From IMG/VR virus record IMGVR_UViG_3300013005_003552, positions 1 through 64,000 of that record: 64,000 nucleotides of DNA. One strand, 5' to 3'. This DNA is from a virus. The number at the start of each line of letters is the position of its first letter. Positions within the stretch are counted from its first letter, which is position 1. The position numbers and the translations under genes were made by a program. Of this stretch, positions 12,598 to 36,247 are shown one piece after another. The notes beneath the pieces were generated by a model that saw nothing but the letters and a program-made list of their open reading frames with translations, did not search any database and was not told where the DNA came from.

Positions 12598-13188
12598 ATG
12601 CCACATTTGGTACCCATGGTGCTTGAACGCACTTCAGCAGGCGAACGCAGTTATGATTTGTACAGTCGTTTGCTCAAAGATCGTATTGTGATGTTGGACA
12701 CTGATGTAAATGAACACAGTGCCAGTTTGATTGTGGCTCAGCTACTGTATCTTGAAAGCGAAGATCCAGACACAGACATCTTGTTCTATATCAATAGCCC
12801 AGGTGGTGTGGTCACAGCAGGTATGGCCATCTATGATACCATGCAATTTATCAAACCAAGTGTGAGTACTATTGTGATGGGGCAGGCCTGTTCTATGGGT
12901 AGTTTATTAGCACAAGCAGGCGCCGCGGGCAAACGACTCATACTTCCTCATGCAAGACACATGATTCATCAGCCTTCGGGCGGTGCTGGCGGGCAAGCCA
13001 CAGACATGGAAATTCAGGTTAGAGAAATACTCAAAATGAAGCATACTCTAACAGATGTGTATGTACAGCACAACAGTGCAGAGCGCACATTTGACGAAAT
13101 CGCTGCTGACATGGAACGAGATTTTTTCATGAACGCAACCGAAGCAGTTGCATATGGACTAGCAGATCGGGTGCTAGAAAACCGCTAA
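12598..13188 (+). CDS. clpP: ATP-dependent Clp protease proteolytic subunit
   Basis: 196 residues, full ClpP length. Catalytic Ser lies in GQACSMGS (near 98) and His in ARHMIHQP (near 123), with the Asp in the following conserved helix region. The handle and oxyanion loop (YINSPGGVV) are intact, so a working tetradecameric protease is expected. No ClpX/ClpA partner is visible, so host unfoldases may be used. TAGGAG precedes the ATG. It lies just upstream of the putative capsid-polyprotein operon; ClpP-fold enzymes are head-maturation proteases in some phages, so a morphogenetic role should be kept open. Confidence 0.92.
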
Positions 13189-13243: not shown

Positions 13244-13957
13244 ATGCGTTTACAAGAATTTGACAAGCTATCGCAGGCAGTGATATTTCATGAATCACTG
13301 AATCCTGCCCTATGGCGCGACGGGCAAATGCTGCCTGATGTGCGCAACAAACTGCTGAAGATTGCTAGAGATTTTCAGCAGTTTATTGGTGTTGAAAATT
13401 TTGATCTAGTGGACATTACAGTAAGTGGATCAAACGCAGCCTACACCTACACTCCCAACAGCGATATTGATCTACATTTGGTTGTGGTAATACCAGATGC
13501 ACATGACCCAGAACTTCGCGAACTGTTCGACGCAAAAAAATACCAGTACAACGACCAATTTGACTTTAAGATTCACGGGTATGATGTGGAACTTTATGTA
13601 CAGGATGTTGAACAGCCACATCATAGCATGGGCATATTCAGTTTGCTCAACGATCGCTGGATTCAAAAACCCAAGCAGACCAAGGCCACGGTGGATGATG
13701 CCAGCGTAGAACAAAAGTACAAAACCTACAAAGGTAGAATAGCACAAGCTCTCAAAGATGATGACGCTATGACCATAAACAGTCTATGGCAGAGCATACG
13801 CGACATGCGCAAGGCTGGTCTGGCCCGGGGCGGAGAATTCAGTCCTGAAAACTTGGTTTTCAAGATTTTGCGGGCCGAAGGAGATCTTGGTGATCTCAAA
13901 CAGCGTATAACTGATATCAAAACACGCGAAATGAGTCTGGAGCAACGGCATGGTTGA
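13244..13957 (+). CDS. Pol-beta-fold nucleotidyltransferase-like protein
   Basis: 237 residues. The signature VSGSNAAYTYTPNSDIDLHL is the GSx(n)DxD active-site motif of minimal nucleotidyltransferases, with a later conserved Asp/Glu (HGYDVELYVQ). A phage family with the same N-terminus (LNPALWRDGQMLPDVRNKLL) is known to me. Acceptor unknown. The start MRLQEFDKL resembles the capsid-targeting-like N-termini of the following genes. The C-terminal 100 residues are helical. First gene of the late operon; overlaps the next gene by 8 nt. Confidence 0.75.
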   Translation: MRLQEFDKLSQAVIFHESLNPALWRDGQMLPDVRNKLLKIARDFQQFIGVENFDLVDITVSGSNAAYTYTPNSDIDLHLVVVIPDAHDPELRELFDAKKYQYNDQFDFKIHGYDVELYVQDVEQPHHSMGIFSLLNDRWIQKPKQTKATVDDASVEQKYKTYKGRIAQALKDDDAMTINSLWQSIRDMRKAGLARGGEFSPENLVFKILRAEGDLGDLKQRITDIKTREMSLEQRHG

Positions 13958-14768
13958 CTTTGTTCGCACTCAAATTTTGAATCAGAATGGTATTGCAGTT
14001 CATGTGTTGAACGATAGCAGCACTGTTGGTACTTTTGAATCACAGGATATTCCGATTGAGAAGTGTTACAAGCATCAACAGTTTTTGTCAAAATTTGTTC
14101 AGAGCATGGCACCAATATATTCAGTAAGTGACCACCAACGCTATTTTGATATAAATGCAAAAATAGCTCTGTTGCATGGCAGTTGTATTAATAACAAAAA
14201 CAACAACCCAGTATCGCCTTTGCAGTTTAGACAACAACATCCAGATCTAGAATTTTGGCTCCAGATGCCTGAACTAAACGATGTGCGGAAAAATATTCCG
14301 ATACTGAGTTTGCATTTTGATCTAGACATTCTAGAGATCAAGCATGCCATGGTAGTACAAAAATTTGTAGAGTCTGCTAACAGTTGGATAGACAACGATA
14401 CTCTTTTTAGATTCATTCGCGAACATTATCATGCTAAATGTATGCTGTCTGGACTACAGTTAAAAAAAGGTAATCATGTTATTCTGTTGGATGCATTGTT
14501 AGACGAACTGCCCTTGCACTGGCACAAATTGGTATTAGACATAGTCAATAAATTATCACTAGAAGTGATGGAAAACTATGAAGCTAGAAATTTAGCATTA
14601 GCTGATGAAATAAAACAATGGGTAGACTCCAGCAGTTACAAGCGAATAGCTCAACGAAGAGCAGCCGCTCATGCAGAACTTTTTTGCAGCACTCTAAAAC
14701 ACAAATTGTTTACAGAACTAGAAAACCATCTTAACACCGTGATATTGAAAGTTATACATGCAGAGTAA
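13950..14768 (+). CDS. Phage protein of unknown function
   Basis: 272 residues, soluble, with no motif I can assign. Hydrophobic and charged residues alternate as in an alpha-helical protein; notable runs are NIPILSLHFDLDILEIKHAM and LPLHWHKLVLDIVNKLSLEV. Unlike its neighbours it lacks the MRYNEL-type start and the DDDxLFG motif. It overlaps both neighbours (8 and 11 nt), so it is firmly inside the operon. Confidence 0.6.
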   Translation: MVDFVRTQILNQNGIAVHVLNDSSTVGTFESQDIPIEKCYKHQQFLSKFVQSMAPIYSVSDHQRYFDINAKIALLHGSCINNKNNNPVSPLQFRQQHPDLEFWLQMPELNDVRKNIPILSLHFDLDILEIKHAMVVQKFVESANSWIDNDTLFRFIREHYHAKCMLSGLQLKKGNHVILLDALLDELPLHWHKLVLDIVNKLSLEVMENYEARNLALADEIKQWVDSSSYKRIAQRRAAAHAELFCSTLKHKLFTELENHLNTVILKVIHAE

Positions 14769-15741
14769 AGAATTTCTCAAAGGCAAAAGCGAAGTGTTCT
14801 TGGACATGGACGGAGTTCTCTGCGACTTTTTTGAAGAGTATGCCAAACTTGCTGGTAATCCCAAAGACGGCAGTGGTCGTTATAACTACAGAAACATTCC
14901 TGCAGCCAAAACTGATCCTACACTGAACAAAATGATTGGTACGGATTTCTTTGCTCGTTTGCCAAAGTTTCCCACAGCAGATGCCTTGGTAAACATGGTA
15001 ATTAAAATTTTTGGGCACTACAACATTTGCTCCAGCCCCTTGCGAGGCGATCATGCCAACAGCGCACACCATAAAAAAGTTTGGTTGAAAGAAAATCTAA
15101 GCACACAGCCTGCACAAGTGATCATAACGCCTAACAAGGCCAAACATGCCATTCAGCCCGATGGCACACCCAATGTTCTAATAGATGACCGGGGCAGCAA
15201 CATCACTGCCTGGGAAGCAGCCGGCGGTGTGGGTATAAAATATCAAGCAGATGAAGACAGTCTTGAAATTGTACTCAAGGGACTGCAAAGAGCAATGGCC
15301 ATCATCCGTAAAGAAATAGAACACCAACCCCAACAGTTGAAAAGTGTAGATAGAAGTTTACCAGTGGCCACACAGGATCAAGATCTCAAAGAATCTTTTG
15401 ATCCTGACAGAATGGGACATTTTATCAGCTGGGTCAAGAAAAAGTTACACATCACCGACTCGTTGCCAGGGATTGAATTTCAGCAGGAAAAAGAAGCGCC
15501 TGATCAGAATCGTACTGGTTATTATAGACCTGACACTGGCAAGCTGTGGGTGTACACAGGAAATAGAAACATGATTGATATCATGCGTACTGTGGCTCAC
15601 GAACTGGCACATCACAAGCAACGCGAAGATGGCAACACATACGCTACCCAAGACCTAGCTGATATTGAAAGTCAAGCAGACATGGCAGCTGGTATGTTGA
15701 TCAAATTGTATGTAAGACAACACACTGAGATTATACAATGA
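14758..15741 (+). CDS. HAD 5'-nucleotidase fused to an HExxH metallopeptidase domain
   Basis: 327 residues in two parts. Residues 1-185 are a HAD phosphatase like 5'(3')-deoxyribonucleotidases: nucleophile motif FLDMDGVLCDFF, motif II SSPLRG and motif IV region VLIDDRGSNI. Residues 220-325 hold TVAHELAHHKQ, a zinc-peptidase motif, with a downstream Asp/Glu-rich helix (DLADIESQADMA). The join reads DLKE/SFDPDRMG, which fits the (I/L)xE site proposed for this operon, so the halves may be separated by proteolysis. The start MQSKEFLKG resembles a capsid-targeting peptide. Overlaps the next start (ATGA). Confidence 0.8.
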   Translation: MQSKEFLKGKSEVFLDMDGVLCDFFEEYAKLAGNPKDGSGRYNYRNIPAAKTDPTLNKMIGTDFFARLPKFPTADALVNMVIKIFGHYNICSSPLRGDHANSAHHKKVWLKENLSTQPAQVIITPNKAKHAIQPDGTPNVLIDDRGSNITAWEAAGGVGIKYQADEDSLEIVLKGLQRAMAIIRKEIEHQPQQLKSVDRSLPVATQDQDLKESFDPDRMGHFISWVKKKLHITDSLPGIEFQQEKEAPDQNRTGYYRPDTGKLWVYTGNRNMIDIMRTVAHELAHHKQREDGNTYATQDLADIESQADMAAGMLIKLYVRQHTEIIQ

Positions 15742-17024
15742 AAAGTTTAGAATTTTTATTAGAATATGATCGCGGCAAGACCGCAGCAGCCTATGGCGAA
15801 AAACTCTTGGCAGTGGCCGTAAGAGATGCATGGTTTGTGCAACAGTATAACAATGCGTTACCAGGTGGTAATATCAAAGACACTGTGAAAAAAAATCCTG
15901 AACAGGTACTGGACTATCTGTTGACCTGGATTGAACGCGGTGATCCCACCCGCAATAAAGAATACAGTCAGAGCATTGCCAAACTGTATGCCATGGGGCA
16001 AAGCAAGTTAGAAGATGTTGCCAGTACCTTGGCAGACTATCTTGCCAAGTTTGACAAACTCAAACGTCGCAAAAAGATTCAACCTCCACGCAATGACTTC
16101 AATCGATATAAAGATCTAGAGTCTTTTTATGATGTGGTAGACGAGTATCCAGACGAAGAAGCAGAATCCAAACCAGAAGAAAAGAAAAATGCCACAGAGC
16201 TGTATCGTGACAATCAGCTGATTGTTACTGTACCCAATGATGTGGAAGCTGCCTGCTACTACGGTCAAGGCACACGCTGGTGTACCGCAGGCAAGAACAA
16301 CAACATGTATGATTACTACACTCGTGGCGATCGTCCACTGTATGTGATCATTCCACGCCAGCAGGCTTATCCGGGCGAAAAGTATCAGTTTCACTTTGAA
16401 ACCAAGCAGTTCATGAATGAACAGGATCGTCAGATTGGTGACAACGGTATGAAGAAATTGGTGGCACGTTTTCCTGTGTTGACCAAGATCCTGCAGAAGC
16501 CTGCAGAGCAGTTCATGATTCCTGCACTGTTGTCCGACGAATACAAAAACATTGTGATTGAAGCCACACCTGAAGTGCAGAAGGCCACCACCCAGTTGAT
16601 TGATCAGTATGCTGATCGTATTATTGCATTTGGTTTCAAAGGTCTTGACAGCTACGGCGTGCGACTGCCTGATTCCGTTAAACAAGAACTGTCCGGTGAC
16701 ATGCGTGACTATCTGGCACAGTGTGTGAAGGCCATGGGCAATTTCTGGAAACAGCTGAGTGGTACACCAGAACTGGCTCGTGATGAAGATCGTATTGAAA
16801 GTATGTTGAGCACCAACGATGCTCTGCGAGCTGTGGCAGAGCAAAGCACTGTGGTTACCAAACTAAAAGACGCTCTGGTACAATCAGGACAGAAGATTCA
16901 CAAGGATGCAATGGCACACATCATTGAACTCACTGTGCGTGATCCACTGTTTCGTTTCATGATGAAACAGGTGGCCAAACAGTACACAGCCAAACTACAG
17001 GAGCAGGGTCATGCGCTACAGTGA
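15738..17024 (+). CDS. Conserved phage protein with WCTA motif and capsid-targeting-like start
   Basis: 428 residues. The start MKSLEFLLE/YDRG resembles T4 internal-protein capsid-targeting peptides cleaved after (I/L)xE. A charged linker (YPDEEAESKPEEKKNA) precedes the distinctive core (ACYYGQGTRWCTAGKNNNMY, then YVIIPRQQ), a motif I have seen in phage proteins of unknown activity. The C-terminal 180 residues are helical. A packaged internal head protein is the favoured inference; function unknown. Confidence 0.7.
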   Translation: MKSLEFLLEYDRGKTAAAYGEKLLAVAVRDAWFVQQYNNALPGGNIKDTVKKNPEQVLDYLLTWIERGDPTRNKEYSQSIAKLYAMGQSKLEDVASTLADYLAKFDKLKRRKKIQPPRNDFNRYKDLESFYDVVDEYPDEEAESKPEEKKNATELYRDNQLIVTVPNDVEAACYYGQGTRWCTAGKNNNMYDYYTRGDRPLYVIIPRQQAYPGEKYQFHFETKQFMNEQDRQIGDNGMKKLVARFPVLTKILQKPAEQFMIPALLSDEYKNIVIEATPEVQKATTQLIDQYADRIIAFGFKGLDSYGVRLPDSVKQELSGDMRDYLAQCVKAMGNFWKQLSGTPELARDEDRIESMLSTNDALRAVAEQSTVVTKLKDALVQSGQKIHKDAMAHIIELTVRDPLFRFMMKQVAKQYTAKLQEQGHALQ

Positions 17025-18486
17025 ACTGATTGAAAACACAGACGATGACTTGTTTAGTAAGCCAGGTGAGCTGTCTACTAACATAAAACAATCAATCAAA
17101 CAGATACAAAATCCGTACCAGCGCACAGTGCATCGTGTACGGGACATAGCCAAGAATCAGTTTGGAGTTAAGGTTCGGGTGAGCGCACAGCCTACCAAAG
17201 CAGCACGAGGCACAGCCACATTCTGGTTTGGCAACTATGACAGAGGACCAGATGATGAGCTGCCACAGGCTCCACCTGTGGCACATGAGATCAAAGCAGA
17301 GCTAGAAAGTCAAGGCTTTGAATGCAAGTTTACCAGTTCCGAGTGGCTCAGTGTGCGTGTGCCGCCACCATTTTCAAACATACTAGACGAAAGTGACGAT
17401 GACGAACTGTTTGGTGATCCTGTACACCGTCGCATAGGACAGTGGCTCATGGGTTTTGCCAACACCATGCGCAACAATCCTGCAGAGATATCGGGCCTGG
17501 ATCCAAGTGACGGCGAAGAATACGACAGCGACCTAGAAGACATTCGCGAAGAAGCCAAGACACTGAAACAGGTAGCAGATGCTTTTATTAGACAGGGCAT
17601 GCAGGCCGGACTGATCATGTGGCAGGACAACAGTGAAGACTGGTGGTGGGAGCGTATTGCCGCAGAGCTAGAAGAAGAAACAGACATCAGTCTAGAGCAA
17701 CTGTTTGACGAACATGGCATGAATGAAAGCGCTGAGTCAGACGATGAACTGTTTGGTGATGGTGAACAAAAGGTATTTGTAGTCTCGGCACCCGACGACG
17801 AAATACTTGGCATGTTCAGTGACATACGCGAAGCAATAGCACATGCCAAAAAACAAGTTCCGATATATCTAGAAGATGGCTGGGGTGATGACGATTTCAT
17901 CACGGTGTACAAACAGCGTGGGAACAACGACAGTGGAGTGCCTGTAGCGCATTTTCCAATAACTGATAACCCGATTGACGAAAGCAATGATGACGATGAC
18001 TTGTTTGCAGCACCTAGGATAAGATTTGGTGATGTATTCAATGAGTATGACGAAGATCAGTTACAAGCACTTGGATTTTCTTATGGTGATGATCCCGAGC
18101 AAGATGTTGATATAATAAATCACTATATTGAAGACCACAAAAATTTTCGTGTGGTTGGTATCAGTGGTGGCGAACATGATCTGATACTACACTTGGATCG
18201 TAGCAGCCGATTAAGAGAAACAGATGACGACGAACTGTTTGGGCGTCGCTGGCATGAAAACATTAACCGCCGCAGCATTGAAATAGACGGCATTGATAGC
18301 AGAGACTATCCTGACTTTGTGGATGCACATATTGTGTATGCAGAAACTCAGGACGGCAAACCACTAACTGACGAACAGTTAGACCAACTCAATGACATGT
18401 ATCATGACAGCGGCGAACTAAATGAATTGGTTCATGATCAACTGTATGAAAGCGACGAATCCAACGAGGACCGCCATGCGCTATAA
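17011..18486 (+). CDS. Putative internal-head polyprotein with five DDDxLFG modules
   Basis: 491 residues, very acidic. The start MRYSELIE/NTDDDLFS repeats four more times in variant form: ILDE/SDDDELFG (about 127), MNE/SAESDDELFG (about 241), PIDE/SNDDDDLFA (about 324) and RLRE/TDDDELFG (about 405). Each copy joins an (I/L/M)xE tripeptide to an acidic LFG motif and starts a different domain. Module 2 shares a helical unit (LKQVADAFIRQGMQAGLIMW) with the two following polyproteins. This suggests a precursor cut by a prohead protease. No enzyme signature is seen. Confidence 0.75.
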   Translation: MRYSELIENTDDDLFSKPGELSTNIKQSIKQIQNPYQRTVHRVRDIAKNQFGVKVRVSAQPTKAARGTATFWFGNYDRGPDDELPQAPPVAHEIKAELESQGFECKFTSSEWLSVRVPPPFSNILDESDDDELFGDPVHRRIGQWLMGFANTMRNNPAEISGLDPSDGEEYDSDLEDIREEAKTLKQVADAFIRQGMQAGLIMWQDNSEDWWWERIAAELEEETDISLEQLFDEHGMNESAESDDELFGDGEQKVFVVSAPDDEILGMFSDIREAIAHAKKQVPIYLEDGWGDDDFITVYKQRGNNDSGVPVAHFPITDNPIDESNDDDDLFAAPRIRFGDVFNEYDEDQLQALGFSYGDDPEQDVDIINHYIEDHKNFRVVGISGGEHDLILHLDRSSRLRETDDDELFGRRWHENINRRSIEIDGIDSRDYPDFVDAHIVYAETQDGKPLTDEQLDQLNDMYHDSGELNELVHDQLYESDESNEDRHAL

Positions 18487-19501
18487 CGAGATCATTGAGA
18501 GCCAGGATGATGACGATGACCTGTTTGGTCGCGGTCTGCATCATCGCATTGCCAATGCTCTGTTGGCACAGAGTGAAGAAGACCAGCGTGTATCAGATGA
18601 AGAGCGTGGCCTTGGCGATTTAGAAAATGCTGCTGAGTTTGCCAAACAAGCCAGTAACTACCGGTACATAGCAGACGCTTTTAATCAAAGCATGGCCATG
18701 GGAGTGAAAGTTTATCGCAGCCTAGATAGAAGCTGGAAAGGTGCAGTGGATGATGTCATAGACATAGAATTTGACATGGACTTTCGCGACTATGTGAAAC
18801 AAATTCCAGAAAGCGCAGATGATGACGACCTGTTCTCCACCAGTCCTAAGCTAGACCGCCGGCATGAACTCCGAGGTAAAACCATTCGTCGCACAGCACA
18901 GCGTGATGCATTGAACATACAGCCTGGTACCCGACTCATGGTCAAGTGGGACAACGGCAAATACTACAAGGGGAAGGTGGTTAGACTCACACCCAGTGGT
19001 CGCTTGGTAGTACAAGTAAAGTTCAAGAATGTGGATTGGCCTTTGGAAAAGAACATCAGTCCACATCAGGTCAAACCAGAACATATTATCAATGAAGCTG
19101 TTGAAGACCATGACGACGAACTGTTTGGTGCACAGCCTGCAGGCGCGAAAGGCATGATCTATCAGGTTGGTAAACAGATATTGAACCAACTGGAACAGAG
19201 CTGGAGCGTGCCTGACATACGAACAGAATACAAACAATACCAAGAAGCAGGTGACACAGATGCTCAGTTTGATCAAGTGGTACGCATCACCAAAAAGCCA
19301 TTTAGACAGGCGTTTGTGGTTGACATCATTATTCGTGAATTTGCTGGCATGGAAGGCTTGAACGATTTTGGCTGGATGTTGGATAATGGGCAGTTCCATG
19401 AACTCACAGATGCATGGGAACGATTCAAGAACGACGATGATATAGAAAGCGAAGACTGGTTCCAAAACGCAGTACGAGATTTTACAGGTGGACTGAAATG
19501 A
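18476..19501 (+). CDS. Putative internal-head polyprotein with three DDDxLFG modules
   Basis: 341 residues from ATG 18476, which follows AACGAGGA and overlaps the previous gene by 11 nt. Sites: MRYNEIIE/SQDDDDDLFG at the start, QIPE/SADDDDLFS (about 114) and HIINE/AVEDHDDELFG (about 205). Module 1 has the shared helical unit (YRYIADAFNQSMAMGVKVY). Module 2 contains an SH3/KOW-like strand set (PGTRLMVKWDNGKYYKGKVV, then RLTPSGRLVVQVKFK). Module 3 is mixed alpha/beta. Probably processed and packaged like its neighbour. Confidence 0.75.
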   Translation: MRYNEIIESQDDDDDLFGRGLHHRIANALLAQSEEDQRVSDEERGLGDLENAAEFAKQASNYRYIADAFNQSMAMGVKVYRSLDRSWKGAVDDVIDIEFDMDFRDYVKQIPESADDDDLFSTSPKLDRRHELRGKTIRRTAQRDALNIQPGTRLMVKWDNGKYYKGKVVRLTPSGRLVVQVKFKNVDWPLEKNISPHQVKPEHIINEAVEDHDDELFGAQPAGAKGMIYQVGKQILNQLEQSWSVPDIRTEYKQYQEAGDTDAQFDQVVRITKKPFRQAFVVDIIIREFAGMEGLNDFGWMLDNGQFHELTDAWERFKNDDDIESEDWFQNAVRDFTGGLK

Positions 19502-21615
19502 AAAGCAAAGATTTCCTAAACGACGAGTGGAGCCAGAAATACAAGAAAAGTATCAACTGTGCCAGCCCCAAGGGCTTCAGCCAACGAGCGCATTGCGCAG
19601 GCCGTAACAAGAATGAAAGCACTGATACAGATGCTGACCTGTTTGGTGACAAAAGCATGCGTGACAAACTGCATCAGCGTCTACAAGCAGCATATAACAG
19701 CATAACCGAAGAAGCAGACGACCTTGGTATTGATGCTATTTTTTCCAATGCCAAGATGTTTGCAAAACTGTTTGACAAGTATGATGATCAGATGAGCGAT
19801 GATCCTATCAAAGATTTTGCCTACAAGGAGCCTGTGCAAAAGGTCAGTAGAGCACTGTCTGAGCTGGAAAAAATTGCCAGTGATGTGTATGCATACATTG
19901 GTGAACAAGGCATGGGCGAAGGTGCTATCATTACCAAAGACCAGTTAGTTGATATCTATATCAAAGGCAAAGGCAAAAACAACATGCCAATTCAAAAGAA
20001 AGTTGGCGCACAGATTCCAAATAGCAAAGTGGAATCATTTATTGCCGCTGTTGCAGACAAGTACGGACTTAATCCAAAAGCATTTGTATACGGGCCTTCC
20101 AGAAGCATGTCCGAAGATGCCGCAGGGGTTGGTGTAGTTGCCAGCAAAAAACAAAAGAATGATCCTCGCTACAGCATGAGCTTGACCAAGGATGTGCGCC
20201 CGGGCGAAGTTGCAAGAAACATGAAGAAATTACATTTAGAAGGCAACCGCGGGTACAGTCATGGTTTTGCAAGTCCAACTGCACCTAGTCTAGGCGGACG
20301 TCGTGAACGCGAAGACGATGAAGGTTATGGCCAAGAAGAACAAAATAACTATGCAGTGGTTATAGATGGCCGTACCTGGAAAGTATTTGCTGACAAACAA
20401 CAAGCAGAGAATATTGCAAGATCGTTGCGTAACAAGGGTAAAAAGGCGTCTGTGAGTATTACTGGAGCCAATCCTTCTGAAAGTGTAACAGAAGCAGATG
20501 CAGAGTCAGATGATGAGCTGTTTGGCACTGCTCAAACACCACCAAAAACAGCACAGGCACTATACCTGTGGAGCCGTGTGGATCCTAATAGATATAATTT
20601 TCGTGCCATAGCTGAATTTGCTTTGAGCCATAAGCTAACTTTGAAACAGGCACTGCAAGTTACTTCAAGGTTTGACGAGTATGATGACCAAATGCAAGCC
20701 GAATATGGTGTTGATGATGATGAAATGGGTGATCTATTTGGCGCATATGAAGAAGTATGTGATGCATGGAACACAGATCCATCGGGCGATACCAGCACAA
20801 ATGACTCGTGGGAAAAATTAGGAGAAGCAGAACTTGAAGAGCCTCCAGAGCGTCCACGCAAGACCACAACCAAGACCAAGCCTGATATCAAGTTTGATAT
20901 TCCTTTTCAACAGGATCAAGATCATCCACTGGCACGAACAGATCCATTGGACGATCTTAAAAAGAAAGCAGGCTTGGGGGATGAACCCAAGGTTAATATT
21001 AAAAAGGCCAAGCAAAAAGATACCTTGAGCCGGACCGCAGGCATTGGCAGTGACGACATGGCAGACATGCTGGGTAAACTGCGCAACATTGAAGTTGATC
21101 GTGATTTAGAAGCATATCCAGATGAGGAACCACCTGAGCAGTTGCCTAGCGTGGAAGTGAACACAGCCAACTTGCCAGCTGTGGCAGGACAAGCACTGCA
21201 AGCAGCAGGTGTACAGAATCCTGACTTCCATCAAGTGGCCAACCTGCCGGGCAATATGGCAGATCAAATTCGCCAGCTGGGCAAGAGCCTGTTTGGCAGT
21301 CTAACCATGACACCTACCAAGCGCATACATGTGGTGGCCAATCTAGGCGGGCAAGGACCCAACAGTTCAGCAGAAGTAAATGCAGTGGCTGGCTTCCTTA
21401 AAGACTACGGACGAGATCTAGGCCCAGGCGACATTGACTTTGAAAATGTCATGCCAGGATATAAAGCACAAACACACATGTTCACTGCCGCAGGCATTCG
21501 CTGGATGCTGGTAAAAGACTTTGCAGGACAGTATATCTACTGTTGGCCAGAAGAAGACAGCCACGATGCACAAGACGCTATTGGCCAGGACCAGTATGTG
21601 AAGAAGCTGAAATGA
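19498..21615 (+). CDS. Large acidic multi-module head-operon protein
   Basis: 705 residues, starting at the ATGA overlap. The N-terminus contains WSQKYKKSINCASPKGFSQR, then AHCAGRNK, a Cys/His-rich peptide I recall from many uncultured phages. Module borders read KNE/STDTDADLFG (about 40) and SVTE/ADAESDDELFG (about 332). The region after 270 has a beta-alpha-beta unit (NYAVVIDGRTWKVFADKQQA). A long Pro/Lys/Asp-rich stretch (about 440-520) is disordered. The end (RIHVVANLGG to YIYCWPEED) is a compact domain. Likely structural or cargo. Confidence 0.7.
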   Translation: MKSKDFLNDEWSQKYKKSINCASPKGFSQRAHCAGRNKNESTDTDADLFGDKSMRDKLHQRLQAAYNSITEEADDLGIDAIFSNAKMFAKLFDKYDDQMSDDPIKDFAYKEPVQKVSRALSELEKIASDVYAYIGEQGMGEGAIITKDQLVDIYIKGKGKNNMPIQKKVGAQIPNSKVESFIAAVADKYGLNPKAFVYGPSRSMSEDAAGVGVVASKKQKNDPRYSMSLTKDVRPGEVARNMKKLHLEGNRGYSHGFASPTAPSLGGRREREDDEGYGQEEQNNYAVVIDGRTWKVFADKQQAENIARSLRNKGKKASVSITGANPSESVTEADAESDDELFGTAQTPPKTAQALYLWSRVDPNRYNFRAIAEFALSHKLTLKQALQVTSRFDEYDDQMQAEYGVDDDEMGDLFGAYEEVCDAWNTDPSGDTSTNDSWEKLGEAELEEPPERPRKTTTKTKPDIKFDIPFQQDQDHPLARTDPLDDLKKKAGLGDEPKVNIKKAKQKDTLSRTAGIGSDDMADMLGKLRNIEVDRDLEAYPDEEPPEQLPSVEVNTANLPAVAGQALQAAGVQNPDFHQVANLPGNMADQIRQLGKSLFGSLTMTPTKRIHVVANLGGQGPNSSAEVNAVAGFLKDYGRDLGPGDIDFENVMPGYKAQTHMFTAAGIRWMLVKDFAGQYIYCWPEEDSHDAQDAIGQDQYVKKLK

Positions 21616-22439
21616 GATACAACGAACTATTAGAAAATGACGATAACGACATGTTTGGCAACAGCGAGCGTGTGGGCCGTGACATTCGCCGCGCTACCTT
21701 TAATGCCAACATACCAGAAATGATTCAAGACATCATTCAGGGTCTGGGCAGCAATGCTGGTATAACTATTCGTGCTATCTCCAGCGACCTTGCTGCTGCT
21801 AACAGAGTATTTCGTGGCAATGAAGAGGTGTACGAACTAGCTGACCAGATGATCACTCGTGAAGCTGTGCAGGTACTACCTGGTATCATGAACACTCTAG
21901 CTGCTGAGCCTGAGATAATCCAGGACGAAGATCGGTTGGGCGACATACTCATGGACTTTATTCCAGAAGTTCGTGCAGAAAGCGAACTATGGGCTTATGT
22001 AGAAGAAATGCTCATGGAAGTGTATGATGAGGATGATATCAGTAAAATTGAAGAAATACAGTACGACTGTGCTCAATCCATGGAATACAACCTGGGCAGT
22101 TTGTTAACCAAGCTCATACAGCAGGCCTATGCTGAGGTACGAGCACTGGGCGAAGACACAGACGATGACGACCTGTTTAGTGATCGTCCCAATGGCAAGG
22201 TGATTGCACAGGATCTAGAACTGTGGCTGCGTCGCAGACAATCAGGCAGTCGTCGTACATTAATGCCAACCTCAGAAAAATATGTACAAGAAGTAATTGC
22301 TGCATTCAATCGCAGTTTTTTAGAAGGTGTTCAGATCTGGAAAGAGTATCCGCTATACGGAAATACTGATATTAAATATGACATTCGCGAATACCTTGAA
22401 AACAGTCAGAATGTGAATCTCATGGACTATGTACAATAA
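21612..22439 (+). CDS. Putative internal-head protein with two DDDxLFG modules
   Basis: 275 residues from ATG 21612 (ATGA overlap). Starts MRYNELLE/NDDNDMFG, with a second site ALGE/DTDDDDLFSDRP near 189. Module 1 is helical and acidic; module 2 again carries the shared unit (EKYVQEVIAAFNRSFLEGVQ, then IWKEYP) found in the two upstream polyproteins. This makes it a paralogue by module duplication. Probable late structural or cargo protein; function unknown. Confidence 0.72.
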   Translation: MRYNELLENDDNDMFGNSERVGRDIRRATFNANIPEMIQDIIQGLGSNAGITIRAISSDLAAANRVFRGNEEVYELADQMITREAVQVLPGIMNTLAAEPEIIQDEDRLGDILMDFIPEVRAESELWAYVEEMLMEVYDEDDISKIEEIQYDCAQSMEYNLGSLLTKLIQQAYAEVRALGEDTDDDDLFSDRPNGKVIAQDLELWLRRRQSGSRRTLMPTSEKYVQEVIAAFNRSFLEGVQIWKEYPLYGNTDIKYDIREYLENSQNVNLMDYVQ

Positions 22440-22639
22440 TGAAAATAAATGAAATTATCACTGAAAACTTTGCCGACGGCAAGGTCAAAGGCAAGAGTCG
22501 TCCTGGTCGTGTAAAACGCTCAGGTGCCAGCTGTGATGGCAGTGTGACCAGTCTCAGAGCCAAGGCTAAAAAGCACGGTGGTGAAAAAGGCAAGATGTAC
22601 CATTGGTGTGCAAACATGAAGTCAGGAAGACAAAAATGA
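22439..22639 (+). CDS. Small basic Cys/His-rich phage protein
   Basis: 66 residues. The start MKINEIITE/NF has the capsid-targeting-like pattern. The remainder is strongly basic (GKVKGKSRPGRVKRSGASC) and ends KGKMYHWCANMKSGR, a motif I recall as conserved in many uncultured marine and freshwater phages. Two Cys and a His could bind zinc. High positive charge in a head operon suggests DNA packing inside the capsid, like T4 internal proteins (inference). The start overlaps the previous TAA (TAATG). Confidence 0.72.
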   Translation: MKINEIITENFADGKVKGKSRPGRVKRSGASCDGSVTSLRAKAKKHGGEKGKMYHWCANMKSGRQK

Positions 22640-23790
22640 GATACAATGAATTAGTAAACGAAACAAGAACGCTGGGCGGTTTCCAGGTGCAGGCTTTGAA
22701 CATCGAAGATCAAGATGTTGAAGAAACTCTTAAACTAGATGCTCCGCAGCGTCGTATGAGTCGTGACGAATTACAAGGCTATGCTGATCGTATCAAAACT
22801 GGCACCAAAACCAAACGCGACAGGTTTGCTCCAATTGTTCATGGTAGCAATATCAAAGCTATCACACAAAGCGATAATCCAGACGACAAATGGGATCTAG
22901 ACGACCTGGCTCAACAGATCATGAAACGCCCTTCCAAGATCCTGGGCACCAATGCCAAGATGGAAAAGAGTCGTACAGAAGGCGAAATTGTATACGACCT
23001 CACTTTGCCAGCACTGTCAGGTATTGTAGTAGATGAAAGCAATGGCGACTTTGTTGAGATAACAACCTGCCCGGGTGCAGGTGAATGCCAACTGTTTTGT
23101 TATGCTAGAAAAGGCGGTTATGTGATGTTTCCAGCCAGCTCAATGAGTGCTGCACAAGCTCTAAACTTTTTGGTAAACGACCCAGAAGGTTATATGGCCA
23201 TGGTGGATCGTGAAGTCAAAACACTCAAAGGCAAAACAGACAAGCACAGTATTAGACTGGTAGTGCGTTGGCATGATGCTGGTGATTTCTTTTCAAAAGA
23301 ATACCTAGACTTGGCCTACAGTGTGGCCAACAACAATCCTGATGTAAAGTTCTATGCCTATACCAAAATGGGCGATGTGGCAGTGGGCAACAAGCCTGCC
23401 AACTTTATTGTGAATTTCAGTTCGGGCTCTCAAAGTCGTGAAGTCAAGAAGGTGGCAGTACACAAGCAGGCTGGCAACGTGGTCAAGGATGCAATCACTG
23501 TGCCCAAGGACATGTTCCGTACTTTGTTTGTAACCGATGCCAAGGGCAAGTATGTGAAAGACGAAAAAGGTCGTACACAGGTTGCCAGCCCCGAAGCCTG
23601 GGAAGAATTCAAACAAAAACTTGCTTCCATGCACAAACTGGATGCAGACACTATCATTACCTATGATCAGATGTTGACTGTTCCAGAAGGGCCCAAACCC
23701 AAATGGAATGTGGTCATATTCCCAGCAGGGCACGGTGATCGAGCTGCCAATCGTTTGGATGTGATTAATAGTTTCCTGATGTTCCACTAA
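22636..23790 (+). CDS. GP88-like phage protein with capsid-targeting-like start
   Basis: 384 residues from ATG 22636 (ATGA overlap; MRYNELVNE). The core has the cysteine pattern TTCPGAGECQLFCYARKGG followed later by VRWHDAGDFFSKEYLDLAYS and KFYAYTKM, matching the GP88-type family of phage proteins as I know it. Catalytic role unknown; the three Cys may bind a metal or Fe-S centre. Last gene of the late operon; its N-terminus again fits export into the prohead. Confidence 0.72.
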   Translation: MRYNELVNETRTLGGFQVQALNIEDQDVEETLKLDAPQRRMSRDELQGYADRIKTGTKTKRDRFAPIVHGSNIKAITQSDNPDDKWDLDDLAQQIMKRPSKILGTNAKMEKSRTEGEIVYDLTLPALSGIVVDESNGDFVEITTCPGAGECQLFCYARKGGYVMFPASSMSAAQALNFLVNDPEGYMAMVDREVKTLKGKTDKHSIRLVVRWHDAGDFFSKEYLDLAYSVANNNPDVKFYAYTKMGDVAVGNKPANFIVNFSSGSQSREVKKVAVHKQAGNVVKDAITVPKDMFRTLFVTDAKGKYVKDEKGRTQVASPEAWEEFKQKLASMHKLDADTIITYDQMLTVPEGPKPKWNVVIFPAGHGDRAANRLDVINSFLMFH

Positions 23791-23802: not shown

Positions 23803-25176
23803 ATGCAAACCATACCTGATCAATTTAATTTTGTTGTTGAACTTTTCAAAACATCTAATCCTGCAGCCATAGCCATTGAAGATGCAGAACAAATCTGGAC
23901 CTATGCTGAACTAGAACAGCGTGTGGGTCAACTGGCTGCATGGCTACAGGCCCTGGGCATTCAGCCTGAACAACGAGTAGCCATTGTAATGAAAGATTCA
24001 GCCGAAACTGTTGCGCTGATGCTAGCTGTGATCTACGGCGGCATGGTAGCGGTGCCGTTGGATCCACGAGCCAACAAGGACTCCTTGTGTTACTGTATAC
24101 AGCACTCAGGTGCTGTTATGGTAGTAAAAGAAAATGACCTAGAACTAGGCCTAGATTATTCAATGAACAAGTCATTGATATCATACGAACATGCACCTGT
24201 GGCAGGTTACAAGTCACATAGAGATGCAGCCTGTATATTCATGTACACTTCAGGCACTACCGGGCATCCCAAAGCCGTGGTTCATAGACAGGCCACACCT
24301 TATATCATTGGCACAGTGACAGGTCCGCATCTGGGGTACACTAGTAAAGACAGAACTTTCAATGCTGCCAAGCTGTTTTACAGTTTTGGCATGTTCAATC
24401 TCTGGGCCACGCTGTTTGCTGGCGCCACTGTGATTTTGCACCCTGGTATTTTTGTGCCAACTACCATAGCCAATCTTGTGGTATCAAAGCAAGTGACATT
24501 TTTAATCATGATTCCGGTGTTGTATGGCAAGCTGAGCGAACAAAATCTGCAAGGACACTGTTTGCGCAAATGCATTTCTGGAGCAGATAAATTGTCAGCA
24601 ACCATTTATGATCGCTGGAAAACAATCACTGGCATTGACATTCATAATCTTTATGGCAGCACAGAAATTGCCGGAGCTTTGGCCTACAACAGTGGCGATG
24701 CACCAGTACATTCAATTGGTCGGGTGATCCCCGGGTATGAAATTGACATACGAGACGGACACCTGTACATTCAAGCGCCCACTGCCGGACTGTATTATTG
24801 GCATGACAAGCATTGGAGTGCAAAACAATTTGGCGAGTGGATGCCCACAGGCGACATTGTGGAACAAGATCAAGCTGGCAATTTATATTTCCTGGGTCGT
24901 GCTAGCGATGTAATCAAAGTTAATGGTAACTATGTTGACCTGTCAGCGATCGAGCAGGCCTTGTTGAATATACCAGGTGTGCAGGAAACCGTGGTGGTAG
25001 GGCAAGTGCAGGACAATGGACATGCTAGACTCAAGGCATATATTGTGCCAACGCCAGACCAAACAGTGAGTCATGAACTGGTGCACCAGCACGTGAAAGA
25101 AATGGCAATTATAGATCAGCTGCCGCGCACCCAAACAGGCAAAATACAACGCTACAAGCTCAGGGCCAAAATGTAA
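23803..25176 (+). CDS. Acyl-adenylate-forming enzyme (ANL superfamily)
   Basis: 457 residues. The ATP-binding P-loop is FMYTSGTTGHPKAVV (about 146-160); further motifs are NLYGSTE (about 283), the hinge region LYFLGRASDVIKVNG (about 363) and the C-terminal catalytic Lys in PRTQTGKIQRYKL. All core ANL motifs are therefore present, though the protein is shorter than usual acyl-CoA ligases (about 500-550). It would activate a carboxylate with ATP and pass it to CoA or a carrier; no carrier protein is nearby. Leaderless late promoter; strong terminator follows. Unusual phage cargo. Confidence 0.88.
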   Translation: MQTIPDQFNFVVELFKTSNPAAIAIEDAEQIWTYAELEQRVGQLAAWLQALGIQPEQRVAIVMKDSAETVALMLAVIYGGMVAVPLDPRANKDSLCYCIQHSGAVMVVKENDLELGLDYSMNKSLISYEHAPVAGYKSHRDAACIFMYTSGTTGHPKAVVHRQATPYIIGTVTGPHLGYTSKDRTFNAAKLFYSFGMFNLWATLFAGATVILHPGIFVPTTIANLVVSKQVTFLIMIPVLYGKLSEQNLQGHCLRKCISGADKLSATIYDRWKTITGIDIHNLYGSTEIAGALAYNSGDAPVHSIGRVIPGYEIDIRDGHLYIQAPTAGLYYWHDKHWSAKQFGEWMPTGDIVEQDQAGNLYFLGRASDVIKVNGNYVDLSAIEQALLNIPGVQETVVVGQVQDNGHARLKAYIVPTPDQTVSHELVHQHVKEMAIIDQLPRTQTGKIQRYKLRAKM

Positions 25177-35387: not shown

Positions 35388-35546
35388 ATGAAACAGAACA
35401 AATTAGTAATGGAACTGTACAAGGCTTGCTTCGACCACGATGCCAAAAAGATTGCAGAACTTCAAAAAAAAGAGTTCCGCAAGATTGCGAAACACAAGGC
35501 CGAAGGTAAGTCATTTACAGCCAAGTGGGTGTTAGTTAGAATTTAA
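35388..35546 (+). CDS. Small basic helical protein
   Basis: 52 residues: KQNKLVMELYKACFDHDAKK, then IAELQKKEFRKIAKHKAEGK. Helical with dense Lys/Arg. CAAGGAGGGG precedes the ATG. No family recognised. The tmRNA gene starts right after it. Confidence 0.65.
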   Translation: MKQNKLVMELYKACFDHDAKKIAELQKKEFRKIAKHKAEGKSFTAKWVLVRI

Positions 35547-35962
35547 GTTATTGCTGTATGAAGCAGAAGGAAAAGTGTTCTGGACGCGGGTTCGACTCCC
35601 GCCAGGTCCACCATAAACACATTGCTCACCTATTGTAGGGCAGTCAGCGAAGGGTCCGATAAGTTCTAGACGAAGCGGAACAAGTAGGCGACAAGTAGTG
35701 TGTTTTTGATGGGCCTGACATTGGTTTCGACAGGGCAAAGAGTAGATAAGTGGACAGCACGGTAAGGCAGAAACCGTAGGGTTGGGGAAACTCGGCCGAA
35801 GACGCAAAAAAGTAAATGCAAAAGCAAATACACAATCTGGTGTTAAAGTAACAGTAGGCAAAGGTTTCCGTTTCGGCGGTTCCAAGTCTGCTCGCACTGA
35901 GGCAGCTTTCGCCTAAACAGCGAAACCAGCGGGGTAGGACTTACCTTGTTAAGCAAACAACC
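35547..35962 (+). ncRNA. ssrA: Circularly permuted (two-piece) tmRNA
   Basis: The acceptor piece comes first: T-arm GCGGG-TTCGACT-CCCGC (35586-35602), then CAGGTCC, A, CCA (ends 35613). An intervening segment of about 97 nt follows, with flanking complements AAACACA/TGTGTTT. The coding piece begins at 35711 with GGGCCTG, which pairs with CAGGTCC and keeps the G3-U70 wobble needed by alanyl-tRNA synthetase, then ACATTGGTTTCGACAGGG. A likely resume codon is GCA 35818; the tag would be 32 residues (AKANTQSGVK to TEAAFA) ending at TAA 35914 inside a helix-5-like hairpin. The tag end is not the usual LAA. Outer RNA ends are approximate. Confidence 0.88.
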
Positions 35963-35988
35963 AATGGGGCTTCGGCCCCATTCTTTTC
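35963..35988 (+). terminator. Intrinsic terminator of ssrA
   Basis: AATGGGGC, TTCG, GCCCCATT, then CTTTTC. Confidence 0.88.
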
Positions 35989-35998
35989 TAAGACTTCT

Positions 35999-36247
35999 GT
36001 GGATTACATTTTTACATTTTTTGCTGTGTTCATGCTAGACCTGGTCTACACATACTATCTAAGATGTGTGGCTGACAATCGCGTGTTCATGGCCAGCGTT
36101 TGGAGCGTGGCCTGTTATTTTGGTGCCAGTGTTGCTGTGATCAATTACACTTCAAATCACTGGCTTTTGGCTCCTGCACTGGTGGGCGCATTCTGCGGAA
36201 CCTGGGTTGGAATGATAGTTAAGGCCAGGAAACGCACGGCTTTATAA
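35999..36247 (+). CDS. Small membrane protein
   Basis: 82 residues from GTG 35999. Three hydrophobic segments: IFTFFAVFMLDLVYTYYL, VWSVACYFGASVAVI and APALVGAFCGTWVGMIV, ending in a basic tail (KARKRTAL). No Shine-Dalgarno is seen after the ssrA terminator, so its expression signal is unclear. Not assigned to a family. Confidence 0.6.
   Translation: MDYIFTFFAVFMLDLVYTYYLRCVADNRVFMASVWSVACYFGASVAVINYTSNHWLLAPALVGAFCGTWVGMIVKARKRTAL

Follow-up and report, generated by a model that had tools for sequence, protein, structure and literature searches.

The operon at positions 13244-23790 of the DNA analyzed here (the window, a stretch of 64,000 nucleotides that spans positions 1-64000 of the 144,265-base IMG/VR virus record IMGVR_UViG_3300013005_003552) raises the question of what becomes of its products, which begin with short peptides resembling the capsid-targeting leaders of T4 internal proteins and in several cases carry repeated glutamate-acidic motifs inside the chain. 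It comprises nine mostly overlapping genes on the + strand (g1, g1b and g2 to g8; Table 1). We consider it likely, with a probability of roughly 0.8, that these genes encode capsid-targeted cargo polyproteins of a giant T4-type bacterial phage that would be cut by its prohead protease. This conclusion is based on the putative cleavage sites, the shuffling of modules at these sites, pairs of free and fused modules, the presence of the prohead protease gp21 and the major capsid protein gp23 in relatives, the predicted linkers, and a homologue in the virion of phage PA5oct. Together with the cleavage rule at gp23, the same evidence supports the cargo-polyprotein interpretation of the initial annotation.

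In T4, cleavage by gp21 takes place after L/I-X-E, and targeting needs no more than the first 10 residues of IPIII (PMC9026906). All six leaders listed in the initial annotation are present (g2, g3, g4, g6, g7 and g8). They are 8-9 residues long with endings such as LIE, IIE, LLE, ITE and VNE, as in leaders of the T4 type, and the three further operon genes have similar starts. The start codons of g4 and g6 (18476 and 21612) lie inside the longest open reading frames (ORFs), and the starts were moved accordingly, in agreement with the initial annotation. The window's record shares 111.7 kb with a sibling record, G001 (168,427 bases), at 99.985% identity, and the two together represent ∼201 kb of one phage. 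Operon proteins were compared across four lineages, namely the window, the 355-kb relative G004 (matching operon at locus L005), L002/G003, and L051.

Twelve acidic (D/E)x(L/M)F(G/S/A) sites were found in four ORFs, as first described: five in g3, three in g4, and two each in g5 and g6. The accompanying claim that a hydrophobic-x-Glu tripeptide stands before the acidic motif held for 11 of the 12, which fit (I/L/V/M)xE, and failed for KNE↓STDTDADLFG at 19615 (arrows mark predicted cuts). At GMNE↓SAES, IINE↓AVED and SVTE↓ADAES the tripeptide lies 2-4 residues ahead of the acidic run and does not touch it. Three sites are located directly behind a leader and nine are internal. Nothing like them was found elsewhere in the window beyond two loose regular-expression matches, and in G004 the combination of hydrophobic-x-E and acidic-LF motif is confined to the matching operon.

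The four lineages contain 51 acidic-LF motifs, of which 3 are interior look-alikes, leaving 48 true motifs; in 45 of these an (I/L/V/M)xE tripeptide is present 5-11 residues upstream of LF. Since the Glu at these sites is chosen by the rule itself, it is the null distributions that count. Random positions gave a mean of 10.7 of 51 and a maximum of 22 in 2000 trials, and acidic non-motif positions gave 30% (Fisher p=4e-16). The third residue before the cut (P3) at the 45 sites is Leu in 20, Ile in 15, Val in 8 and Met in 2, which does not follow the S/A/G-x-E rule of the phiKZ type, while the residue after the cut (P1') is Asn or Ser in 15 each, Ala in 5, Thr in 4, and Asp or Glu in 3 each. Cleavage after LFG rather than before it was considered and rejected, because the first motif directly follows the leader and the last modules have no C-terminal copy. 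The phenomenon reaches further than initially annotated: DDDxLFG is only one linker style, and junctions of the form xAE↓N or xxE↓G that do not contain it do the same job elsewhere. In two long ORFs of L051 (4664-9122) the modules are separated by numerous repeats of QGVAE↓G, QGMAE↓G and PGVAE↓G, another type of junction that lacks the acidic tag.

The strongest test of the polyprotein interpretation is a comparison of free and fused copies of the NFADG module. At least 558 relatives of this module, fused or free, are present in IMG/VR, and the best 80 were read. In roughly a quarter of these 80 the module is a free protein preceded only by a leader (MRAAEFVTE↓NFADGK, MRAREFVIE↓, MRASEFITE↓); in the remaining loci it forms the continuation of a variety of unrelated proteins, nucleotidase-, NMNAT- and ParB-like ones among them. 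The residue preceding the module (P1) is Glu in 80 of the best 80. Because one of the two search patterns contained this Glu, the 58 loci not matching that pattern were counted apart, and Glu was present in all 58 (46 of 46 distinct contexts). Over 67 distinct contexts P3 is V22, I20, L10, M5, F4, A3 and others 3, so that 61 of 67 have I/V/L/M/F, and P2 is unconserved. The rule read from these junctions is the one published for T4 gp21. Another mobile module, QRLDP (QRLDPKCW), was searched with no Glu in the query or the patterns; in 39 of its 54 contexts (I/L/V/M/F)xE precedes it by at most 7 residues. QRLDP modules occur in ORFs of ∼1000-1300 residues (L206, L187, L204 and others), some of these polyproteins being far longer than those of the window.

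These junctions bear on the possibility that only the leader is removed and that the internal xE-DDDxLFG segments are flexible linkers in an intact multidomain virion protein, similar to polyvalent proteins. Such proteins can be delivered unprocessed, for example the virion RNA polymerase of N4 (PMC5512222); the linkers are predicted to be disordered, as this explanation would have it, and cleavage is a step that we infer. Nevertheless we regard an intact chain as improbable, since a plain linker would not hold a P1 Glu and an aliphatic P3 in 67 independent contexts of one module amid a varying P2 and surroundings, would not match the maturation site of gp23 (see below), and would not account for the same Glu closing the leader when the module is free.

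The cargo-polyprotein interpretation is further supported by the exchange of modules between genes. In an all-against-all BLAST comparison, the L002 counterpart of g5 was found to contain the second module of g3, and the L002 counterpart of g3, in which one module is present twice, contains the second module of g6. The g5 module behind MGE↓GAII also occurs at another G004 locus, in an NMNAT-like chain that carries extra modules. The conserved C-terminal half of g5 comes after VTE↓ADAESDDELFG, and in L002 additional modules have been inserted behind the leader of the g8 equivalent. In three lineages the g2 domain comes behind the leader; in L051 it is internal and comes behind LVE↓Y. The nucleotidyltransferase (13244) and the nucleotidase (14758), its next-but-one neighbour, are separate in the window and fused in L005 and L002 via IHE↓A or LRE↓A. 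Altogether 44 of 73 internal homology boundaries fall at a site, compared with a mean of 11.1 and a maximum of 30 for circularly shifted sites (5000 trials), and several of the remaining boundaries coincide with xxE sites that lack the acidic tag (LAE↓NMDH, MAE↓NFADG, MGE↓GAII). The assertion that each site precedes a new domain is thus borne out at homology boundaries, as it is in the two proteins that were modelled, g3 and g4. A helical unit said to be reused in three proteins was recovered in two (17389-17745 versus 18494-18829, 27.6% identity, E=2e-6); BLAST did not recover the third copy, and this claim is weakly supported.

The coexistence of free, leader-bearing copies and fused copies makes fusion of neighbouring leader genes a plausible origin of the polyproteins. 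It would also fit the notion that the repeats are an evolutionary scar, in which fusions keep leader remnants by descent and the junction has no function. We give this notion hardly any credence: the remainder of the leader has disappeared from the fused forms and P2 has changed, but P1 does not vary and P3 is still aliphatic, and the nucleotidase-zincin junctions of three lineages (LKE↓S, LQE↓T, ITE↓D) differ in sequence while the rule is kept.

The protease that would cut such chains is encoded by the relatives. G004 carries gp20, gp21, a gp22-like gene and gp23 in T4 order, and its gp21 matches PF03420 (E=3.8e-28), PDB entry 5jbl (E=3e-16) and phrog_207 (E=4.9e-60). Both gp21 and gp23 were found in 13 of 13 large module-bearing contigs (G004 and twelve others; the window's own partial genome aside), the major capsid proteins of relatives matching phrog_138/PF07068. 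Aligned to T4, the maturation point of gp23 lies near residues 31-42 of the G004 protein, and eight gp23 N-termini read LSE↓S, LAE↓S, LKE↓N, LSE↓Q, LQE↓T, LAE↓S, LAE↓S and LAE↓A at this point. Judged from these alignments, the gp23 sites follow the same rule and P1' preference as the polyproteins and are an independent reading of the specificity of the protease. In G012, G006, G010 and G005 the phrog_207 alignment of gp21 continues past a stop codon into a further segment, a hint that in some relatives gp21 lies next to, or is fused with, a core protein encoded downstream.

Predicted structures are consistent with folded modules joined by disordered linkers. The AlphaFold2 model of g4 (mean predicted local distance difference test score, pLDDT, 78.9) has three confident blocks, and its predicted TM score (pTM) of 0.39 is as expected for unconnected modules. 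Residues with pLDDT<50 (1-18, 121-128 and 209-221) lie in or directly beside its three sites. The model of g3 was poor (mean 55), with all five sites in low-confidence stretches. All eight sites tested in the two proteins lie within or against segments of pLDDT<50 that separate modules, and hence in predicted disordered linkers. Foldseek relates the middle module of g4 to Tudor/SH3 barrels (TMt ∼0.7, E ∼0.1), a likeness that we treat as a lead only.

Our best guess for the acidic motif is that it serves as a tag on the new N-terminus. A different view would be that DDD(D/E)LFG is a short interaction motif for the sliding clamp, for single-stranded DNA-binding protein (SSB) partners or for RNA polymerase, the preceding xE being incidental. 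SSB-like phage proteins at L060 and L067 end in (E)DDDDLFG, gp43 of this phage ends in TTFEALFTFE, and the tag is more conserved than cutting needs. On the other hand, the motif opens modules, with its first copy directly behind the leader and not at C-termini, junctions without it still keep xE, and a clamp motif would be expected to begin with a hydrophobic residue, which is missing. As a replacement for cleavage this view is very unlikely; such an interaction need not compete with cleavage and could be an additional role of the new N-terminus. A clamp-binding reading of LFG was rejected, the gp43 end being only loosely similar. The DNA pattern for E-x-DDD-(D/E)-LFG was likewise rejected as a family marker; its IMG/VR matches beyond this clade are mostly chance (capsid proteins, SSB-like C-termini).

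A link to the virion comes from Pseudomonas phage PA5oct, which has a gp23 sharing 66% identity with the G004 protein. Its protein EST35_0205 (start MKLFEVFTLYED) is a homologue of g2 (tblastn E=2e-26) and is annotated in GenBank as a structural protein detected by electrospray ionization tandem mass spectrometry (ESI-MS/MS). EST35_0150 (start MKINDIITE, beside the portal) and EST35_0238 (start MKIKDILVE) were also detected by ESI-MS/MS.

Several observations weigh against cargo polyproteins cut by gp21. No cleaved peptide has been seen in the clade, and no PF03420 or PF07068 match was found in the window's own record, a 144 kb fragment, or gp21 and gp23 in its sibling, so that both genes must be assumed in the part of the genome that was not recovered. 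The leaders are recognised by pattern alone, and leader-like starts are weakly enriched in module-bearing ORFs relative to their neighbours (p=0.05). Among the virion proteins of PA5oct, starts that match a loose leader pattern are only mildly enriched (11/93 versus 17/300, p=0.04), and the virion link accordingly supports the case without carrying it. Moreover, (I/L/V)xE is a short motif that also occurs within modules, where it is not significantly depleted (82 observed, 91 expected, p=0.13), which means that specificity must rest on the accessibility of the linkers. The off-rule site at 19615 belongs here too, as does the fact that the DDDxLFG tag is dispensable at other junctions.

Taken together, our results suggest the following course of events. 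The N-terminal leader of ∼8-10 residues would bring the chain into the prohead core. Several of the chains would be polyproteins of folded modules of ∼60-130 residues with disordered linkers between them, each linker holding an (I/L/V)xE↓(S/N/T/A) site. During one maturation step gp21 would remove the leader and cut the linkers, freeing the modules inside the head, from where they would presumably be ejected with the DNA. The leaders, the junction rule, the exchangeable modules, the gp21 gene of relatives and the matching gp23 site are read directly from sequence and the disordered linkers are predicted, whereas import, cutting, ejection and what the modules do are inferred.

Table 1. Genes of the operon and predicted cut sites (P1, residue before the cut; ↓, predicted cut).
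Feature	Coordinates	Strand	Description
g1	13244..13957	+	nucleotidyltransferase-like; start MRLQEFDK, leader-like; phrog_36119 E=3.3e-48
g1b	14758..15741	+	5'-nucleotidase (NT5C/HAD) module and zincin-like module (HELAHHKQ); start MQSKEFLK
LKE↓S (g1b)	15391..15393	+	candidate site between modules, P1 codon; aligned junctions in relatives
g2	15738..17024	+	leader MKSLEFLLE↓, then WCTAG-containing protein
g3	17011..18486	+	five-module polyprotein; leader MRYSELIE↓; five acidic-LF sites
LIE↓NTDDDLFS (g3)	17032..17034	+	P1 Glu codon
LDE↓SDDDELFG (g3)	17389..17391	+	P1 Glu codon
MNE↓SAESDDELFG (g3)	17725..17727	+	P1 Glu codon
IDE↓SNDDDDLFA (g3)	17980..17982	+	P1 Glu codon
LRE↓TDDDELFG (g3)	18217..18219	+	P1 Glu codon
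g4	18476..19501	+	three-module polyprotein; leader MRYNEIIE↓; middle module SH3/Tudor-like barrel (lead only); three acidic-LF sites
IIE↓SQDDDDDLFG (g4)	18497..18499	+	P1 Glu codon
IPE↓SADDDDLFS (g4)	18809..18811	+	P1 Glu codon
INE↓AVEDHDDELFG (g4)	19094..19096	+	P1 Glu codon
g5	19498..21615	+	polyprotein; start MKSKDFLN; two acidic-LF sites
MGE↓GAIITKDQ (g5)	19918..19920	+	homology block with residues 233-320 of the G004 NMNAT-like ORF begins here
VTE↓ADAESDDELFG (g5)	20491..20493	+	P1 Glu codon
g6	21612..22439	+	two-module polyprotein; leader MRYNELLE↓; two acidic-LF sites
LLE↓NDDNDMFG (g6)	21633..21635	+	P1 Glu codon
LGE↓DTDDDDLFS (g6)	22152..22154	+	P1 Glu codon
g7	22439..22639	+	66 aa; leader MKINEIITE↓ and free NFADG module, basic
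g8	22636..23790	+	leader MRYNELVNE↓, then GP88-domain protein; PF17338 E=2.2e-31

No Pfam family was found above cut-off in g3-g6, and the Pfam search of these genes found no known polyvalent effector or peptidase domain in the same chain. The HELAH motif of g1b gave a sub-threshold match to DUF6782 only; g1b also matches phrog_2643 (E=3e-20) and, at cut-off, PF06941. The match of g1 to PF01909 (E=5e-4) falls just short of cut-off. Directly 5' of the operon lies a ClpP-like peptidase ORF (12598-13188), whose homologues occupy the equivalent position in L002 and L005, and directly 3' of it an AMP-dependent ligase-like ORF (23803-25176; phrog_28622 E=1.5e-38). A second cluster of leader genes is found at 106059-108763 of the record (L008), with an NMNAT-like protein starting MFIAQLFE followed by proteins starting MRKLLESI and MFIYELFE, which suggests an NAD-related enzyme among the cargo. 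At 35521-36007 of the window, ARAGORN called a permuted-type transfer-messenger RNA with an unusually long tag (AKANTQSGVKVTVGKGFRFGGSKSARTEAAFA), which may be false.

Leaders, gp21, internal proteins, a scaffold cut to pieces and polyvalent proteins are all known already. T4 IPI, IPII, IPIII and Alt (PMC9026906, PMC3012670) share with the present proteins the leader M(K/R)xxxE(F/L/I)(I/L/V)xE, the gp21 cut after L/I-x-E, the gp20/gp21/gp23 head module, and an operon of diverse, fast-changing proteins. Unlike them, which are single-domain and lose the leader alone (Alt also a C-terminal piece), the chains described here have up to five (window) or seven (G004) modules, shuffled and with a site before each. 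The T4 core proteins gp22 and gp67 (PMC9026906) are likewise chains with several gp21 cuts, which divide each into a number of fragments, but their cutting destroys a scaffold and so lets it leave the head, whereas the sites reported here lie between folded, conserved modules. The inner-body and ejection proteins of phiKZ and SPN3US (PMC10052503, PMC5694885, PMC13282480) are likewise head cargo of jumbo phages cut after Glu by a gp21-related protease; they differ in the motif, which is A-x-E or S/A/G-x-E, and in shedding long propeptides, whereas in the present proteins P3 is L/I/V, the leader is short and modules lie on both sides of the cut. Polyvalent proteins of phages and conjugative elements (PMC5512222) are multidomain and thought to be delivered with the DNA, and the authors of that study already drew the polyprotein analogy. 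They have embedded peptidases and known effector domains, unlike the small modules without Pfam match and the separate head protease considered here. Finally, PA5oct and the Rak2-like giant phages (group 2.2 jumbo) have gp23 proteins 66-70% identical to that of G004, and PA5oct has the g2 homologue in its virion; they differ in that no DDDxLFG polyprotein was found in any INPHARED record, where tblastn with g3 and g7 gave no match. No account of prohead-protease processing of cargo polyproteins was found in the literature library searched, which lacks most subscription papers, in two reviews of jumbo phages (PMC7824862, PMC13282480) or in the study of polyvalent proteins (PMC5512222).

We think it somewhat better than an even chance that a mobile cargo-cassette system is common to large T4-type phages in natural waters, that small effector modules move in it between phages and genes, either free with a leader or as units of a polyprotein, and that the modules released in the clade of the window start with a D-D-D-x-L-F-G tag that would act as a second address after cutting. 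With every junction kept as a prohead-protease site, many different proteins could be loaded under one import signal. The same modules recur in hundreds of related uncultured viruses, and we regard such polyproteins as widespread and directly testable. If this is true, a head protease whose known task is the removal of leaders and scaffold doubles as a polyprotein processor, which would explain how giant phages keep a changing injected arsenal on one import signal per chain. Under the junction rule, hundreds of phage ORFs that lack annotation would become predicted virion cargo, with their mature N-termini predicted as well, and the rule may offer a route to finding counter-defence and takeover proteins.

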